Shown: piece after piece, positions 31,514 through 40,253 of the stretch
Layout of the letters: each line of letters opens with the position of its first letter
How positions within the stretch are numbered: the stretch's first letter is position 1
Assembly: GCA_022825885.1 (NCBI GenBank)
Contig: JAJDVY010000041.1
Location: forward strand, 1-64,000
DNA length: 64,000 nucleotides
Origin: Nitrospirales bacterium
GTDB lineage: Bacteria > Nitrospirota > Nitrospiria > Nitrospirales > UBA8639
Direction of reading: 5' to 3'
The notes under the pieces: model-generated
The model's input: the letters and a program-made list of their open reading frames with translations, nothing else
The model's database searches: none
Told to the model about the DNA's origin: nothing
Program-made: the position numbers and the translations under genes

Positions 31514-31556
31514 AGAAATTTAGAGAAATTTTCAAACATTGATGGGGAGGGAGAAA

Positions 31557-32861
31557 ATGAAAGACAAGATGATTTCATTAAAATATATAAGTATTTTATT
31601 CTCAGCATTAATACTTTGTTTCATTGCCGGGTCGGCTTTGGCTGACGAAGGCACCGCAGCGATCAGCGCAGGGGACACGAGTTGGCTCCTGACTTCTTCC
31701 GCGTTGGTGCTTGCCATGATTATTCCGGGTCTGGCCCTTTTTTATGGAGGGATGGTGCGCGACAAGAACGTGCTGAGCACCATGATGTACAGTTTTATCT
31801 CGGTGTGCGTGGTCAGCGTAGTCTGGGTCATGTGGGGCTATACCATCGCTTTTGGCACGGACGTGGGAGGCATCGTCGGCAGTTTCGAGTTTCTGTGGTC
31901 GAATGGCGTCGGGCCGGAGGCCTTTCCGGGCACGGCCGTCCCGCACCTGGCTTTCATGGTGTTCCAACTCATGTTCGCCGGGATTACGGTGGCTCTGATC
32001 AGCGGGGCCATTGCGGAACGTATGAAGTTCGGTGCGTTCGTCCTTTTTGCGGTCCTGTGGGTGACCTTGATCTATGCGCCGCTTGCCCATTGGGTCTGGG
32101 GCGGCGGATGGTTGGGTGAATTGGGAGCCTTGGATTTTGCCGGCGGCACCGTCGTCCACATCAGTTCGGGCGTGGCGGCCTTGGCCGCGGCGTTGGTCCT
32201 TGGAAAACGGCATGGCTATGGGACGGAAAAGATGGCTCCCCATAACCTGCCTTTTACCGTGGTTGGGGCGGCTTTGTTATGGGTCGGATGGTTCGGGTTC
32301 AACGCGGGGAGCGCGTTGGCGGCCGATGGGGTTGCCGCAGGGGCTTTTGTCGCCACCCACGTGGCCACGTCTGCCGGTGTCCTGGGGTGGCTCGCGGTGG
32401 AATGGATGTACACCGGCAAGCCAACGGCCCTGGGTGGGGCAAGTGGTGCCATTGCCGGGTTGGTGGCGATCACGCCCGCGGCGGGTTTTGTCGGCCCGAT
32501 TTCCTCTATTTGGATCGGTTTCGTCGCCGGGGTGGTCTGTTATTTAGCCGTAGTATGGAAATCCAAATTCGGCTATGATGATGCCCTCGACGTCCTGGGT
32601 ATTCACGGCATCGGAGGCACGTGGGGGGCCATTGCCACGGGACTCTTTGCCAGTGTTGGTGGGGCCACCGGCCTGTTTTTCGGTAATCCGGGACAAGTGT
32701 TTATTCAAGCCGTGGGCGTCGGAGCCACTTGGGTCTTTTCGTTTGTAGGGACCTTTATTCTGTTGAAAGTGTTGGATGCGGTGATCGGCCTTCGCGTAGG
32801 CAGGGAAGAAGAAATCATAGGACTTGACCTGAGTGAACACAGCGAACGCGCATATACTTAG
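31557..32861 (+). CDS. amtB: Ammonium transporter Amt (first copy)
   Basis: The 434-residue protein has a signal peptide (about 1-29) and eleven membrane helices. Family marks are DTSWLLTSSALVLAMIIPGLALFYGGMVR at the first helix, the conserved twin-His pore region (ITVALISGAIAERMKF, later HISSGVAALAAALVLG and IHGIGGTWGAIATGLFA) and the Asp in GLDLSEHSERAYT at the cytoplasmic tail that binds PII. It is the first of two Amt genes with glnB between. The ATG follows GGGGAGGGAG. The first 75 bp are much richer in A/T than the rest. Confidence 0.96.
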   Translation: MKDKMISLKYISILFSALILCFIAGSALADEGTAAISAGDTSWLLTSSALVLAMIIPGLALFYGGMVRDKNVLSTMMYSFISVCVVSVVWVMWGYTIAFGTDVGGIVGSFEFLWSNGVGPEAFPGTAVPHLAFMVFQLMFAGITVALISGAIAERMKFGAFVLFAVLWVTLIYAPLAHWVWGGGWLGELGALDFAGGTVVHISSGVAALAAALVLGKRHGYGTEKMAPHNLPFTVVGAALLWVGWFGFNAGSALAADGVAAGAFVATHVATSAGVLGWLAVEWMYTGKPTALGGASGAIAGLVAITPAAGFVGPISSIWIGFVAGVVCYLAVVWKSKFGYDDALDVLGIHGIGGTWGAIATGLFASVGGATGLFFGNPGQVFIQAVGVGATWVFSFVGTFILLKVLDAVIGLRVGREEEIIGLDLSEHSERAYT

Positions 32862-32880
32862 ACTCCGGATCAATTCATGA

Positions 32881-33300
<420 letters not shown>

Positions 33301-33464
33301 CCGGGTTTTTCAAAACCATTTGAACGCCCCGCCATGGAGTAGGGGCCGTTATTGAAATATCCGGGGGTGGCTTCAAGTTCTGAATGCCCCGGCAACGGAT
33401 TGTTTGTGACGGTTTGCATGTCCGGCCGCGCCGGTTCATATAACTCTTAACCTGAGGTGGAACC

Positions 33465-34763
33465 GTGAAGCACTCGACCTTCTCATTGATGTGGCTATTG
33501 GTTGTGATTCTGAGCGTATCGTGCGGGCCGGCGACCGGATGGGCCCAGGACGGTACTCCGGGAGCTATTGATACCGGCGATACGGCGTGGATCCTGGTGT
33601 CGTCTGCATTCGTGTTATGCATGACTTTGCCGGGGCTGGCACTGTTTTACGGCGGCCTCGTCCGGAGCAAGAACGTACTTGGGACGCTTGCGCATACCGC
33701 CGTCATCCTGTGCCTGATCAGCATCGTGTGGGTGCTGATCGGCTATTCACTGGCATTCGGGACTGACGTTGGCGGGATGATCGGCAGCTTGGAATTTCTC
33801 GGCTTGATGGGTGTGGGACAGGAGGCGTTTCCCGGTACGGGCATCCCACATCTGGTTTTTATGGTGTTTCAACTCATGTTCGCGGCCATCACCGTGGCCC
33901 TGATCACCGGCAGCTTTGCCGAGAGGATGAAGTTCACGGCGTTGCTCCTGTTCGCCGTGCTTTGGTCAGTCCTGATTTATTCGCCTCTTGCCCACTGGGT
34001 CTGGGGAGGCGGGTGGCTGGCAGAGATGGGCGCATTGGACTTTGCCGGAGGCGCCGTGGTGCACATCAGTTCGGGCTTCGCCGCGCTCGTCTGCGCGTTG
34101 GTGTTGGGAGCGCGGAAGGGCTACGGGGTTGAATCCATGTTGCCGCACAATCTGCCCATGACGGTCCTGGGAACGGGCCTGCTGTGGTTCGGGTGGTTTG
34201 GGTTCAACGCAGGGAGCGCCTTGGGCGCCAATGGGGGCGCGGCGACGGCTTTTGTGGCCACCCATATTGCGGCGTGTGCCGGCGGGTGTAGTTGGATGGC
34301 AGCGGAATGGTTTCGCACGGGCAAACCCACCATGCTTGGCGTGGCCAGCGGCATTATCGCAGGCCTGGCGACCGTCACCCCCGGTGCCGGATTCCTTTCG
34401 CCCTTGTCGGCGTTACTGATTGGACTCGTGGCGGGCGTTCTCTGTTACGCCGGAGTTGTCTTGAAAATCAGACTCGGGTACGATGACTCGCTTGACGTGG
34501 TGGCTATCCACGGGTTGGGAGGATTTACCGGAATCCTGGCCACCGGGCTGTTTGCCTCGGTCGGAGCCCAGGGGTTGTTTTTTGGAAACCCGGGCCAATT
34601 CATGGTGCAAGTCGTGTTGGCCTTTTCCACGCTCGTGTTTGTCTTGGTGGGAACGTTTGTGATTTTGAAAATCGTCGACGTTCTGGTCGGCCTTCGAGTT
34701 TCACCTGAAGACGAAGAAGTCGGGCTCGATTTGAGCCAGCATAGTGAGCGCGCCTATTCCTGA
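33465..34763 (+). CDS. amtB: Ammonium transporter Amt (second copy)
   Basis: The 432-residue Amt starts at GTG (GAGGTGG upstream) with a signal peptide (about 1-28). It carries the same pore and helix marks as the first copy, including FGTDVGGMIGSLEF, PHLVFMVFQLMFAAITVALI, the later His region and the C-terminal GLDLSQHSERAYS that contacts PII. The two copies are clearly paralogous but differ enough to be an old duplication. The different N-termini and inner segments might give different affinity for ammonium. It is followed closely by glnA. Confidence 0.95.
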   Translation: MKHSTFSLMWLLVVILSVSCGPATGWAQDGTPGAIDTGDTAWILVSSAFVLCMTLPGLALFYGGLVRSKNVLGTLAHTAVILCLISIVWVLIGYSLAFGTDVGGMIGSLEFLGLMGVGQEAFPGTGIPHLVFMVFQLMFAAITVALITGSFAERMKFTALLLFAVLWSVLIYSPLAHWVWGGGWLAEMGALDFAGGAVVHISSGFAALVCALVLGARKGYGVESMLPHNLPMTVLGTGLLWFGWFGFNAGSALGANGGAATAFVATHIAACAGGCSWMAAEWFRTGKPTMLGVASGIIAGLATVTPGAGFLSPLSALLIGLVAGVLCYAGVVLKIRLGYDDSLDVVAIHGLGGFTGILATGLFASVGAQGLFFGNPGQFMVQVVLAFSTLVFVLVGTFVILKIVDVLVGLRVSPEDEEVGLDLSQHSERAYS

Positions 34764-34822: not shown

Positions 34823-36232
34823 ATGACTCCGCGTGAAGTCTTGGATTTTGCGAAAAAGAACAAAGTGGAAATGGTCGATCTCAAGTTTGTGGACCTAGTC
34901 GGGACGTGGCAGCATTTTTCCGTCCCGACTTCCGAACTGAACCTCGATTTGTTTAAGGATGGAGCAGGCTTTGACGGATCATCCATCCGCGGATGGAAGG
35001 CCATTCAGAACAGCGACATGCTGGTATTTCCTGACCCGAATTCCGCCCGGATGGACCCGTTTACCGAATTGCCGACTCTCAGTATGGTGTGTAACGTGCA
35101 AGATCCGATCACGCGCGCCGTCTACGAGCGGGACCCGCGGGGCGTGGCTCAACGGGCGGAGCAATACTTGAAGAGTACGAGAATCGGCGACGTTTCCTAT
35201 TGGGGGCCTGAAGCCGAGTTTTTCGTGTTTGACCATGCAAGTTACGACCAAACGAGTAATTCGGGCTATTATTTTATTGACTCCGAAGAAGGGATTTGGA
35301 ATTCAGGCGACGACGGTCACAACTTGGGGTCGCGGCCCCGGCACAAGGAGGGCTATTTCCCCGTTCCTCCGACGGATACGCAACAGGACATACGTACCGA
35401 AATGGTCAGGGAAATGGAAAAGGCCGGGATTCACGTTGAAAAACATCACCATGAGGTGGCCACGGGAGGTCAAGCCGAAATAGATCTTCGCTTTGATTCC
35501 TTGCTGAGCATGGCCGACAAGATGATGTTGTACAAATACATCGTCAAAAACGTGGCCAGGCGGCACGGCAAAACCGCGACGTTTATGCCGAAACCGTTGT
35601 TCCAGGATAACGGGACGGGCATGCATACCCATCAAAGTATCTGGAAAGACGGAAAACCGGCGTTCGCCGGCAAAGAATACGCGGGCGTGTCTAAAGCGTG
35701 CCTGCATTATATTGGCGGCGTGCTGAAGCATGCTTCGGCCCTAGCGGCGTTCACGAATCCGACGACCAATTCCTATAAGCGGTTGACACCGGGCTTTGAG
35801 GCTCCCGTGTTGTTGGCCTATTCGAGCCGGAACCGGTCGGCGGGCATTCGAATCCCGATGTATTCGACCAGCCCGAAAGCCAAACGGATCGAAGTCAGAT
35901 TTCCAGACCCCTCGGCCAATTTTTACCTGGCGTTCAGCGCCATGCTGATGGCCGGACTCGATGGGATTCAAAACAAGATCGACCCGGGCGAAGCCATGGA
36001 CAAAAATCTTTACGATTTGGCGCCGGAGGAAGCTTCAAATATCCCAACCGTGCCTTCGAGCCTGGATGAAGCACTCGACAACCTGGAGAACGACCATCAG
36101 TTCCTGTTAAAAGGCGGGGTCTTTAGTGAAGATCTGGTGGAATCCTGGATAAGCTATAAACGGGAAAACGAAGCCGATGAGGTTCGCATTCGTCCTCATC
36201 CCCATGAATTTTTCTTGTACTATGATATTTAG
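34823..36232 (+). CDS. glnA: Glutamine synthetase type I
   Basis: The 469-residue dodecameric enzyme makes glutamine from glutamate, ammonium and ATP. It has [14 protein letters not shown], the [10 protein letters not shown] loop, the metal motif [11 protein letters not shown], the ATP region [16 protein letters not shown], the substrate segment [11 protein letters not shown] and the adenylylation Tyr in [10 protein letters not shown]. The Tyr implies GSI-beta type control by GlnE, and GlnE-like genes lie next to it. AAGAAGGAGGT precedes the ATG. It ends at a terminator hairpin (36264-36298). Confidence 0.97.
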
Positions 36233-36263: not shown

Positions 36264-36306
36264 ACGGCGTCTTTCCGCTTCAATCGGGGAGACGCCGTTT
36301 TCTTTT
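36264..36306 (+). terminator. Intrinsic terminator after glnA
   Basis: ACGGCGTCT (36264-36272) and AGACGCCGT (36290-36298) are a perfect 9-bp inverted repeat with a 17-nt loop, followed by TTTTCTTTT. The second arm lies inside the end of the convergent adenylyltransferase gene, whose last codons it encodes. Confidence 0.75.
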
Positions 36307-38574
36307 GCCGGAAGGCGTTTGACAAAAGAGTTTAATGAATATGGCGTGTGTCCGGTGCATGCGTTGTTGCAACTCGCGTTCAAAGGCTTGTGTGCCTTCT
36401 TGCCAGATATCGGTCATGTACCCGAGTCTTCTTGCCAGATAGGTCATGTCGTCGGAACCGGATTCCGGAAGGACCAGGTCCTTGGCATTTCCCCGAACGA
36501 TACGCAATCCATCGATCACTTTTCTCAGAAACTGATAGTCTTCCGCCAGGATGGTTGCGTCGTGATTTGAGAGAAACGTTGTCGTTTGAAGGGCCTCAAG
36601 TGCGTCCAGAGTATTGGGTGTATGGAGGGAAATATCGCGGTGTCCATGCTGTATTTGAAGGTACTGAATCGTGTATTCAACGTCGATGAGTCCGCCCGGA
36701 CTGTATTTCACGTGGATGGCGCCCTTGGGAACCAATTCCCTGATTTGCCTGCGACGCAAATGGAGCGCGGTATTCAACGGCCAGGGAGTTTGGTTATACA
36801 CGAACTCGTCACGGTAGCGCTCGATGCGACGGCCCAGCGTCATATCTCCCGCGACGTGTCGCAGCTTGATTAACGCCTGTCGTTCAAAGGGCGCAGCAGG
36901 TCCTCCCGTTTGGTAATAACGTTTAACGTCGTCAAAGGAATTGGCCAGCAGACCTTTTTCTCCATAAGGTCGAAGTCGGATATCGAGTTGAAAGATGCCT
37001 TCTTCTTTCGCTTCGATCCAATGGAGGAATTCCTGGACAAGACGCTCGAAGTATTCGCTGGTGACAAAGCTGGGGACCCTGGATGTCCTGGGTGACGCCC
37101 CATAGACAAAGAGGATCTCGATATCGGAAGCGTAGCCCAACTCTCGCCCACCTAACTTGCCCAATCCGCAGATGCTGAACGGGAGCGGATTTTTTGCCGA
37201 GGAGAACGGCTGCGGATGTTTCCGGTTGACCACTGATTGGGCCTCGACGAGAGCTTGTGCTAGAATCACTTCAGCCAGGGTGGTGAGCGATTCGGAGAAC
37301 GAGGGGAGGGACGTTTTGTTGAGAATATGATGCATGTCGATACGAAACAATTCCTGATCTTTAAACCGATTCAAGATCGTTTTTCTGCTTTCCGGATTTC
37401 GATTCTTTCCAAGTGCGGTCTTCAACGCCTTAGTGAGAGCGGTTTTTGATGAGTGGGCCTGGGGTTGGTGGAACGTTTCGACAATGGGCAGAAGGTTGAC
37501 GTGTTGCCGGCGAAGGAAGTCTTCCCATAAAAAATCGCTTGTACCGAATAACCGGGCGAGGTTGGTCAACGAATCTTTTTTCGTGAGCCAGCCGATCTGT
37601 TTTTTGCTGAGACGATGTTCCAGCAACTGATCCAGGAAATGACTGAAATGATTCAACGCCTTGCCGGGATCCGGTGCCCACGTGAGGAAATGGGTAAATT
37701 CCTTGATGAGGGCGGCGGCAACGGTCAGTTCCTGTTGTTCTTGTGCCGAGACAATTTTCTTGCCGTGTCGATCCCTGACAAAAAATCGGTTGCGGACTCT
37801 GATACCGTCTCCATCAATCACGGCTTTTGAAAAATACAGTCCTCTCATGGCTAACGCATTTGTAAAGGCGTATAAGAAAGCCGGAGAATCCGTGCCTCTG
37901 ATATCGATGACGGTATCTCGTGTGGAACACGCATTGTTGAAAAATATTTCCACCGGATGCACGAGCGCGGAAGCCGCTGCTTTTCTTTGGTCAAGCGTTT
38001 CCACCAATTTGCGATTTACGTAATTGCGGACCTCCTGGAGCTTCCGGGATTCGAGCAAACAAATCATGCGGGACAAGTCCCGGCTCAATTTCTGCTCCAT
38101 TGCCGCATCGAATAGAGTCCCTTGGAGAAGGTGAACCTGAAAGACGTCCACAACTTTTCTTTTGAAGAGGTTCGGTCGTTGACGGGGACGCCGGATCGGC
38201 CATTTGAGGGCTTGCATGCGACGTAAAGGTTTCGACGCAGAAGCGGGGTCGTCATGGTACGTGAAAATAAGGGCTTCGCGTATGTCGAAGCCATAGGCGG
38301 ACAACAGGCCGCAAATCGTGGCAAATTCCGCAAAATAGTCGTAAGCGACGATCGTGAGCCGGTACCGATTCGCACCGTTTGCCGGTTGAACAAGGAGTGT
38401 GCAGGGATTTTCCAAGGTCAGGGTGTTGGCCAGGGTCACGTGTTCCGCTACGGTCTGGGTTGAAAATTCCAAGAAATAATCCGGATCCATGCGATCCAGA
38501 AAATCTTTGATGGTCGTCGCGTCGATGTGGGGGCACAGCCTTTCCAATTCCATCGAGTCGAATGCGTTTTTCAT
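36280..38574 (-). CDS. GlnE-type adenylyltransferase core fused to a GlnD-like ACT module
   Basis: The 764-residue protein combines two parts. Residues about 20-60 (RMDPDYFLEFSTQTVAEH) resemble the segment leading into the ACT repeats of GlnD. Two ACT-like units follow: about 70-175 (LTIVAYDYFAEFATICGLL; FDIREALIFTYHDD; VVDVFQVHLLQG) and 222-300 (VIDIRGTDSPAFLYAFTNAL; FFVRDRHGKKI). The C-terminal part (about 435-764) is a GlnE nucleotidyltransferase core with GLGKLGGRELGYASDIE at 470-486 and the third acid in QLDIRLRPYG. The second metal acid is Glu, not Asp. By its ERQALIKLRHVAGD block it resembles the AT half of GlnE. It would modify glutamine synthetase, with glutamine sensed by the ACT units. 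Function is inferred. Confidence 0.75.
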   Translation of the reverse strand: MKNAFDSMELERLCPHIDATTIKDFLDRMDPDYFLEFSTQTVAEHVTLANTLTLENPCTLLVQPANGANRYRLTIVAYDYFAEFATICGLLSAYGFDIREALIFTYHDDPASASKPLRRMQALKWPIRRPRQRPNLFKRKVVDVFQVHLLQGTLFDAAMEQKLSRDLSRMICLLESRKLQEVRNYVNRKLVETLDQRKAAASALVHPVEIFFNNACSTRDTVIDIRGTDSPAFLYAFTNALAMRGLYFSKAVIDGDGIRVRNRFFVRDRHGKKIVSAQEQQELTVAAALIKEFTHFLTWAPDPGKALNHFSHFLDQLLEHRLSKKQIGWLTKKDSLTNLARLFGTSDFLWEDFLRRQHVNLLPIVETFHQPQAHSSKTALTKALKTALGKNRNPESRKTILNRFKDQELFRIDMHHILNKTSLPSFSESLTTLAEVILAQALVEAQSVVNRKHPQPFSSAKNPLPFSICGLGKLGGRELGYASDIEILFVYGASPRTSRVPSFVTSEYFERLVQEFLHWIEAKEEGIFQLDIRLRPYGEKGLLANSFDDVKRYYQTGGPAAPFERQALIKLRHVAGDMTLGRRIERYRDEFVYNQTPWPLNTALHLRRRQIRELVPKGAIHVKYSPGGLIDVEYTIQYLQIQHGHRDISLHTPNTLDALEALQTTTFLSNHDATILAEDYQFLRKVIDGLRIVRGNAKDLVLPESGSDDMTYLARRLGYMTDIWQEGTQAFERELQQRMHRTHAIFIKLFCQTPSGKRKRRLPD

Positions 38575-38651
38575 GGTACGTTAGTATACCGTAACCTTTT
38601 ATGATTGGAAGGGCGGGTTGCTCGTTGATCCCCGAACGGAAGGGATTTCAG

Positions 38652-40253
38652 ATGCCCATGATAAACACGCCATCCCCCGGCTTCGACCCGCATTTGCTCT
38701 TGCTTTCGCCGGATTTGGCGTCTTCGGATGTGGCGAAGCTGTTGGCTCCGTATGGATTCCAGGATTGGAAGCAAGCTGACGCGAATTTGCAAAGTATGGC
38801 CGGCAATCCTCGAGACCGAAAACTGTTGGCCAAGATTCTGCCTGATCTTTTGCACGCCGTTTCAGGAACGGCCGATCCGGATCAAGCCTTACGTGAATGG
38901 GTGCGATACATGGATGCCGGCAATGCCAGAGCCCAGGTATTCGAGTTTTTGGCACAGGTGCCGCACGTCCTGCAATTGCTTTGCGTCTTGTTTGGAAACA
39001 GTCCTGCAATGGCGGAAACGCTTGTTCGAGACCCGATGTTAATTTATTGGATCGAGGGCGAGCATATCCTGAAATCCCGTTCCACTCCCAAACGCCTTCA
39101 GAGGGCGTTATCCGAAACCCTTGGCCTCGTGCAAGCTTATGAACATAAGCTCGACGCTCTCCGTCGCTTTTATCGCCGTGAAATGCTACGCATCGGCGCG
39201 CGTGATCTTTTTCGGGTTTCGTCCGCCGCGGAAACCGCACAATCTCTATCCCGACTTGTGGATCTGGTGATCCATGCCGCGTATCAACTTGTTAACAAGA
39301 AACTACGGGAAAAATACGGCATGTTCTGTCAACAAAGACCAGGATGGGCAACGAGTGAAACGGGATTTGTGGTGTTGGGAATGGGGAAATTGGGCGGACG
39401 CGAATTGAATTACAGCTCCGACGTCGATCTCATCTATGTGTATGCATCGAACCAAAAAGAAAATAGGGTCGCAAAAGACGAAATTAGCCTTGGGGAGTTT
39501 TTTCAGTTGGTCGCGAGAGAACTCACGCGGGTCCTGTCGATTGCCACTTCGGAAGGATGTTTGTTTCGCGTGGACTTGCGGTTGCGGCCCGAGGGAGTAG
39601 CCGGACCGTTGGCATGGTCGAACCGGCAAGCCGTGCAATACTACCAAACGCGGGGGAGGACTTGGGAGCGGCTGGCATTGTTAAGGGCTCGACCCATAGC
39701 AGGGCAACGATCCTTGGGGCAGGCTTTTCTCAGGCAAATCCGGCCCTTTGTCATGGGAGGAGAAGACCCGGCTCACCAAAATCTTATCGAGACGGTTCAT
39801 AAACTCAGGACGGAGATTCATCGCAAAGTCCTAAGGAAAAAGGAGCATGAGCGCAACGTCAAACTCAGCCCCGGAGGAATCCGAGACATTGAATTCATAG
39901 CCCAGACGCTTCAATTACTGCACGTTGTCACCCACCCGCAGTTGCTTGAGTCGAATACGATCACGGCGCTTCAATATCTCCAGGCTCTCAACCTCCTGCA
40001 AGCCGCTGACGGAAAATTTCTCGAGGAAGCCTACCTGTTCTTGCGTGACATCGAACATAAGCTGCAAATGGTTCATGAACTGCAAACTCATACCTTGCCG
40101 AATGACCGTTCTGAATTGACCAAATGTGCCATCCGCATGGGCTATACAGACCAACCTCCTTCTTCCGCAACGACAAAGTTTCTTGCTCACTACGAATCCA
40201 TCAGAACCCGGGTCCAAGCCATCTACGCACGGACATTATCTTGGCCGGGTTGA
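38652..40253 (+). CDS. GlnE-type adenylyl-removing-like protein, single core
   Basis: The product is about 533 residues. It has one GlnE nucleotidyltransferase core with GMGKLGGRELNYSSDVD (about 243-259), the third acid in RVDLRLRPEGVAGPLAW, and YYQTRGRTWERLALLRARPIAG, then a helical domain with KLSPGGIRDIEFIAQTLQLLH. These blocks resemble the N-terminal AR (deadenylylating) half of canonical GlnE, which normally carries two cores in about 950 residues. The second core is absent here and appears on the divergent neighbour. GGAAGGG precedes ATG 38652; an ATG at 38601 has no such site. The GlnE assignment is firm for the fold; the AR role is an inference. Confidence 0.78.
   Translation: MPMINTPSPGFDPHLLLLSPDLASSDVAKLLAPYGFQDWKQADANLQSMAGNPRDRKLLAKILPDLLHAVSGTADPDQALREWVRYMDAGNARAQVFEFLAQVPHVLQLLCVLFGNSPAMAETLVRDPMLIYWIEGEHILKSRSTPKRLQRALSETLGLVQAYEHKLDALRRFYRREMLRIGARDLFRVSSAAETAQSLSRLVDLVIHAAYQLVNKKLREKYGMFCQQRPGWATSETGFVVLGMGKLGGRELNYSSDVDLIYVYASNQKENRVAKDEISLGEFFQLVARELTRVLSIATSEGCLFRVDLRLRPEGVAGPLAWSNRQAVQYYQTRGRTWERLALLRARPIAGQRSLGQAFLRQIRPFVMGGEDPAHQNLIETVHKLRTEIHRKVLRKKEHERNVKLSPGGIRDIEFIAQTLQLLHVVTHPQLLESNTITALQYLQALNLLQAADGKFLEEAYLFLRDIEHKLQMVHELQTHTLPNDRSELTKCAIRMGYTDQPPSSATTKFLAHYESIRTRVQAIYARTLSWPG

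Follow-up and report, generated by a model that had tools for sequence, protein, structure and literature searches.

How might a bacterium control its glutamine synthetase (GS) when the enzyme expected to adenylylate it is divided over two divergent genes, one of which carries the sensory tail of GlnD? The adenylylation of GS is a textbook bicyclic cascade, in which the signal passes from GlnD via PII and GlnE to GS. The question is raised by a stretch of DNA of 64,000 nucleotides (the window; positions 1 to 64,000 of the forward strand of contig JAJDVY010000041.1, assembly GCA_022825885.1) from a Nitrospirales bacterium of the class Nitrospiria, in which two adjoining genes, here called ACT-GlnE and GlnE-N, encode one GlnE-type core each. 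At a probability of about 0.52, we suggest on the basis of sequence comparisons that they form a two-gene GS adenylylation system in which the adenylylating (AT) half, equipped with ACT domains, would be gated directly by an amino acid, likely glutamine, and a separate deadenylylating (AR) half would answer to PII. No description of an ACT-bearing GlnE was found in the open-access literature searched. The two genes and the relevant parts of their products are as follows.

36280..38574, minus strand: ACT-GlnE, the AT-like half, 764 amino acids, with one GlnE core and an N-terminal module of the type found at the C-terminus of GlnD (Pfam, NCBIfam, AlphaFold, HHalign)
38404..38553, minus strand: pre-ACT helices (residues 8-57), a homologue of the part of GlnD that follows the HD domain (HHalign to GlnD tails)
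38050..38403, minus strand: ACT1, residues 58-175, of which 106-139 are a variable insert that is predicted poorly
37693..37956, minus strand: ACT2, residues 207-294
36325..37668, minus strand: GlnE nucleotidyltransferase and helical core, residues 303-750 (PF03710, PF08335, fold match to 1v4a and 3k7d)
37117..37125, minus strand: catalytic motif D484-I-E486 (GAT ATC GAG), with E486 kept in every one of 63 aligned ACT-linked cores
36982..36984, minus strand: D531, the third catalytic acid, invariant
38575..38651, no strand: divergent intergenic region, 77 bp
38601..40253, plus strand: GlnE-N, the AR-like half, with a single GlnE core and a likely start at ATG 38652 (open reading frame, Pfam, tree)
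39420..39428, plus strand: D-V-D catalytic motif of the AR-like core

The first-pass annotation of this DNA had described two divergent genes, 77 bp apart and each with one GlnE-type core, and both the open reading frames and the Pfam searches agree with it. The gap measures 77 bp because the start at 38652 is favoured by the Shine-Dalgarno-like sequence GGAAGGGA in front of it; GlnE-N has 550 amino acids when read from its longest start and about 533 from the likely one. Both proteins score above the Pfam cut-offs for the GlnE core and for the PF08335 helical domain: ACT-GlnE contains one PF03710 core (142 bits, residues 337-585) followed by PF08335 (57 bits, residues 620-750), and the corresponding scores of GlnE-N are 228 and 108 bits. 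As expected of halves, both miss the NCBIfam cut-offs of 487-724 bits for full-length GlnE equivalogs, with 203.6 and 336 bits.

The N-terminal 285 residues of ACT-GlnE are nearly invisible to Pfam, which barely registers them as ACT_ACR9_3rd (E 0.075), the top Pfam ACT match in 20 of 22 ACT-GlnE members. NCBIfam models of GlnD do match this module (PRK05092, E 4.6e-26, and E 2.4e-46 in the enzyme from Anaerolinea; TIGR01693, positions 605-842). When an alignment of twelve ACT-GlnE N-terminal regions was compared by HHalign with an alignment of eleven GlnD tails, the two matched at 99.9% (E 5.3e-35) over 239 columns, the succession of pre-ACT helices, ACT1 and ACT2 being the same in both. The proposed resemblance of two ACT units and a pre-ACT segment to the C-terminus of GlnD is thereby borne out. 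ACT-GlnE differs from GlnD in that it has no uridylyltransferase domain and no HD domain match in Pfam or NCBIfam, carries an extra insert in ACT1 and an altered DRPG-type loop, and has a GlnE core attached. The plant ACR proteins (ACR9-like proteins and ACR11), with which the Pfam match indicates a further likeness, consist of ACT repeats and are not known to have a nucleotidyltransferase core. ACR11 was reported to bind chloroplast GS, its effect on GS being disputed in the same paper (PMC12702975).

In the AlphaFold model of ACT-GlnE (predicted local distance difference test score 89.6; predicted template modelling score, pTM, 0.87), the ACT domains and the C core form one confident unit. 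Its core resembles the N and C domains of E. coli GlnE (Z 40.1 for 1v4a and 37.7 for 3k7d), and its N-terminal part resembles the amino-acid-binding tandem ACT domains of aspartate kinase (Z 11.5) and of threonine deaminase with isoleucine (Z 9.3). Canonical GlnE is a single chain in which a central regulatory region connects the N and C cores and PII is the partner (PMC12409994); it has no ACT domain and a D-x-D motif in both cores. The system studied here shares with it the PF03710 and PF08335 core types, the fold and the target tyrosine kept in GlnA; it differs from it in its two genes, in the GlnD-type ACT module on the C core and in the D-x-E motif found there.

The assignment of the plus-strand core as AR-like and of the minus-strand core as AT-like is supported by the tree, which separates the N cores, canonical and ACT-system alike, from the C cores, whether canonical or ACT-linked (support 92/86), so that N- and C-type cores are both present, spread over two genes. 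The ACT-linked cores form one clade (100/100). In approximately unbiased (AU) tests, a grouping of both ACT-system cores with each other was rejected (p-AU 0.001), and a grouping of the ACT-linked core with the canonical N cores was marginally rejected (p-AU 0.044). The N halves of Nitrospiria group with the canonical N cores and not with those of the three-module enzymes described below (99/98), and the ACT-linked C halves are shared with other phyla; the two halves therefore have different histories. Judged by these trees, the N half of the pair is of canonical type and the C half, with its ACT link, is of separate descent. A simple vertical splitting of a three-module enzyme is weakened as an explanation, since a single clade of all ACT-system N halves was likewise rejected (p-AU 0.011).

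The ACT-linked half is found in about 100 of the 117 genomes of the class (105 nominal matches, of which five weak ones were not counted), and those genomes without it that were re-checked yield at most a weak match of the kind given by the GlnD nucleotidyltransferase domain. Both halves adjoin, as separate genes and not as two cores in one polypeptide, in 19 of 20 class regions fetched (14 divergent, 5 convergent); the twentieth is truncated by a contig end. An assembly or frameshift artefact is rejected, as the pair is conserved class-wide in two gene orders. Within the class the halves are retained or lost together, and two streamlined Nitrospira genomes (G183, G218) have lost the pair altogether, in agreement with the reported absence of glnE from the streamlined Nitrospira NspiraGL (PMC9239080). 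The other classes of Nitrospirota possess an ordinary two-core GlnE of 930-1170 amino acids.

The split and the ACT sensor noticed at this one locus are thus real and class-wide, but they are no oddity of Nitrospira: they belong to a multi-phylum family of ACT-linked cores. A scan of named genomes, which outside the class are mostly metagenome-assembled genomes (MAGs), detected the ACT-linked core in Chloroflexota, Planctomycetes (including Kuenenia-labelled MAGs), Acidobacteriota, Verrucomicrobiota, Fibrobacterota, Spirochaetota, Omnitrophota, Entotheonella and others. Three arrangements occur: a single chain in the order N-ACT-C (25 loci; Chloroflexota, Planctomycetes, Acidobacteria and Verrucomicrobia), a single chain in the order ACT-C-N (6 loci), and separate genes, which in Entotheonella and at locus L106 stand in tandem on one strand, the second gene of L106 having its own Shine-Dalgarno-like site. 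The permuted ACT-C-N order was seen at L145, L146, L150, L123, L136 and L156 (Fibrobacterota, Spirochaetota, a Deltaproteobacteria-labelled MAG and Omnitrophota); four of these six loci have glnA immediately upstream. The model of the N-ACT-C enzyme from Anaerolinea does not fix the arrangement of its modules (overall pTM 0.55, which is low), but it contains a disordered hinge at residues 453-472 between the N core and the ACT domains. Since this hinge is disordered and ACT plus C core form a rigid unit, the models indicate that the sensor belongs with the adenylylating core and that the gene split falls at the hinge.

An acidobacterial MAG encodes, at 1674-10312 of L303, a co-directional run of glnD, PII, amtB, a possible membrane protein gene, glnA and the N half of glnE, with the ACT-AT gene on another contig, a layout consistent with an AR half tied to PII and an AT half that does its own sensing. 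Solitary ACT-AT genes, with an N half not found anywhere in the genome, were noted in a Glassbacteria MAG (G230, L119) and in a Chloroflexi MAG (G241, L130), where they may reflect gaps in the MAGs or one-way enzymes. A Pelobacter MAG (G245, L135) has a canonical two-core GlnE in addition to a separate solitary ACT-AT.

The D-I-E in place of D-x-D pointed out in the AT-like core by the first-pass annotation is real and family-wide. D-x-E is present in all 33 ACT-linked cores of the tree set and in 63 of 63 aligned, and D-x-D in 19 of 19 canonical C cores and in all N cores. Decay of the motif is rejected as an explanation, the glutamate being an invariant signature of the family.

Evidence on the role of the sensor comes from the co-occurrence of the enzyme with the other cascade components. 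Nine Chloroflexota genomes, including that of the isolate Anaerolinea thermolimosa, contain ACT-GlnE, and neither GlnD nor a GlnB/GlnK-type PII was found in them; the tenth genome of the PII test, that of a planctomycete, gave a borderline PII match (3.8e-10). At a lax threshold the PII-less Chloroflexota yield only distant PII-like matches, and the alignable ones are without the YRG-x-EY T loop. In seven of these nine genomes glnA lies in the same stretch as the ACT-GlnE gene, and the adenylylation tyrosine is retained in each of the eight GSs that the nine yielded. PII is present in 20 of 20 canonical-GlnE genomes examined, compared with 16 present and 10 absent among the ACT-GlnE genomes (Fisher p 0.0024, kinship ignored). 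These Chloroflexota lend indirect support to a direct sensing of amino acids. Two simpler rules did not hold: absence of GlnD is weakened as a mark of ACT-GlnE, as 7 of the 20 canonical-GlnE genomes also lack it, and a general replacement of GlnD by ACT-GlnE is rejected for Nitrospiria, where GlnD was found in 21 of 21 genomes examined. As a separate observation, the PII proteins of four GlnD-less ACT-GlnE genomes (L221, L223, L224 and L226, from Glassbacteria, Verrucomicrobia and Spirochaetes) are without the Tyr51 motif (e.g., YRSHKEAGS, YRGVMQEVN).

In the genome to which the window belongs (95.5% complete), no two-core GlnE was found, a full GlnD is encoded on another contig, and the window itself contributes the following neighbours of the split pair.

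34823..36232, plus strand: glnA, type I GS, with the adenylylation tyrosine at 36011-36013 (NLYDL)
33465..34763, plus strand: amtB, second ammonium transporter gene (order kept in L068 and L070)
32956..33300, plus strand: glnK (PII), T-loop Tyr51 (YRGTEY)
31539..32861, plus strand: amtB, first ammonium transporter gene (sequence; order kept in L068 and L070)
36264..36298, plus strand: weak terminator-like stem-loop between the convergent ends of glnA and ACT-glnE

All parts of the classical cascade are hence present, namely GlnD, a PII with Tyr51 in an amtB-glnK-amtB-glnA run and a GlnA with the adenylylation tyrosine. As both GlnD and PII are encoded here, the sensor would add to the cascade and not substitute for it. 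Direct sensing of an amino acid keeps its indirect support from Chloroflexota; a replacement of the cascade by the ACT-bearing enzyme is not supported in this genome.

In the system that we propose, the plus-strand protein would be the AR core, and the minus-strand protein would be the AT core, permanently joined to GlnD-type pre-ACT, ACT1 and ACT2 segments. Glutamine at high levels, or a closely linked amino acid, would bind between the ACT domains and switch on the rigidly attached AT core, which would adenylylate Tyr397 of the neighbouring GlnA and so lower GS activity; under nitrogen shortage the AR core, a separate protein, would strip off the AMP under the control of PII/PII-UMP as set by GlnD. 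One protein would then receive the glutamine signal and the other the PII/2-oxoglutarate signal. We infer the ligand, the direction of activation, GlnA as the substrate and the PII dependence of the AR half, the last because this half groups with the N core of the PII-dependent canonical GlnE. E. coli GlnE is itself directly stimulated by glutamine; the reading of glutamine would therefore not be wholly new, and the new element would be a dedicated GlnD-type sensor and its placement.

Glutamine, although the probable ligand, is a guess from kinship with GlnD. The ACT ligand loops of the window protein read DYFAEF and DSPAFL, as compared with the DRPG-type motif of GlnD; the enzymes of Chloroflexota keep the loop glycine (DYPGEL, DTxGFL), and some other families of the class Nitrospiria keep DTPGFL. 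Mean identity within the class is nevertheless higher in these loops (0.79 and 0.82) than in the nucleotidyltransferase region (0.72), which suggests a binding site in use. It is rather unlikely, in our view, that the same enzyme reads another amino acid or metabolite with its ACT pair, or that the pair mainly dimerises or relays a PII signal. Such a reading would accord with the divergent loops, with the retention by the class of both GlnD and a Tyr51-bearing PII, and with the many amino acids that ACT folds bind (isoleucine in 9d2r, arginine in CASTOR1). It sits less well with the GlnD tails as nearest relatives of the module, GlnD being governed by a single glutamine site (PMC4285133), and a pure relay of PII cannot be general when the module occurs in genomes without GlnD and GlnB/GlnK-type PII.

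Two further explanations touch the catalytic core. The D-x-E site, shared by all ACT-linked cores and by none of the canonical C cores examined, might mean that this core is not the GS-adenylylating half and modifies another protein such as PII, or works in another reaction direction; the split pair, moreover, does not always adjoin glnA (9 of 49 stretches). We consider this improbable, since the tree makes the core an ortholog of the canonical C cores, it is fused to an N core in most other phyla and glnA lies nearby in Chloroflexota and Fibrobacterota, and PII cannot be the substrate where no PII exists. A Glu at the second position also occurs in nucleotidyltransferases that are active: the PDB entries 6p01 and 6p06 of ANT-4 are E52D mutants, so that the wild type has Glu at this position, which we take to be the second-position acid of an active nucleotidyltransferase of the same fold. 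That the ACT-AT half is vestigial and GS adenylylation effectively lost could appeal to the streamlined Nitrospira, in which the function is evidently dispensable; across the class, however, the three catalytic acids and likewise the ACT loops vary little or not at all and the halves share their fate, and we deem this idea very improbable. Several observations nonetheless weigh against the two-gene system gated by an amino acid: the DRPG-type glycine is lost from the ACT loops of the window protein, so that they may bind a different ligand or bind it weakly; the PII contrast ignores kinship and is drawn mostly from MAGs, with weak PII-like matches persisting in the PII-less genomes; GlnD is missing from 7 of 20 canonical-GlnE Nitrospirota also; the grouping of the ACT-linked core with canonical N cores is rejected by a narrow margin (p 0.044), and neither E. 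coli core scores higher than the other against the ACT-linked profile; and two MAGs have a solitary ACT-AT with no N half.

More tentatively, ACT-GlnE might represent a widespread, undescribed class of GS adenylyltransferases that sense glutamine via GlnD-derived ACT domains and can run without PII or GlnD; in Nitrospira it would have been recombined with a PII-dependent AR half of canonical type, the two signals acting on two proteins. If true, a GlnD sensor placed directly on the adenylylating half would let the same signal take a shorter path and would explain the adenylylatable GS of Chloroflexota that lack GlnD or a GlnB/GlnK-type PII. In Nitrospira, nitrifiers with comammox organisms among them, the transfer of a domain and the splitting of a gene would have rewired nitrogen control. 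With a different catalytic output attached, ACT-GlnE also allows the ligands of GlnD-type ACT domains to be tested directly.

Turning to minor features of the locus, a search for sigma-54 promoters found no sites in excess of shuffled sequences, and a sigma-70 scan across both genes returned a single weak site and nothing at the divergent gap. The evidence for the stem-loop at 36264..36298 is weak, given that four terminator-like sites were seen and 3.7 are expected in shuffles. Among the matches listed in a phage search, only partial matches of GlnE-core type were present (about 24-27% identity). Upstream of glnA, the window has glnK flanked by two amtB genes in the same direction (31539-34763), an order conserved in L068 and L070. 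Elsewhere in the genome, at C25:41187-41753 (8903-10042 of L272), there is a third GlnE-like core of 379 amino acids (PF03710, 41 bits); as it is degenerate and the D-x-D/E motif is missing, it was rejected as a full two-core GlnE. This third core overlaps the end of a gene for an AlkB-like hydroxylase.

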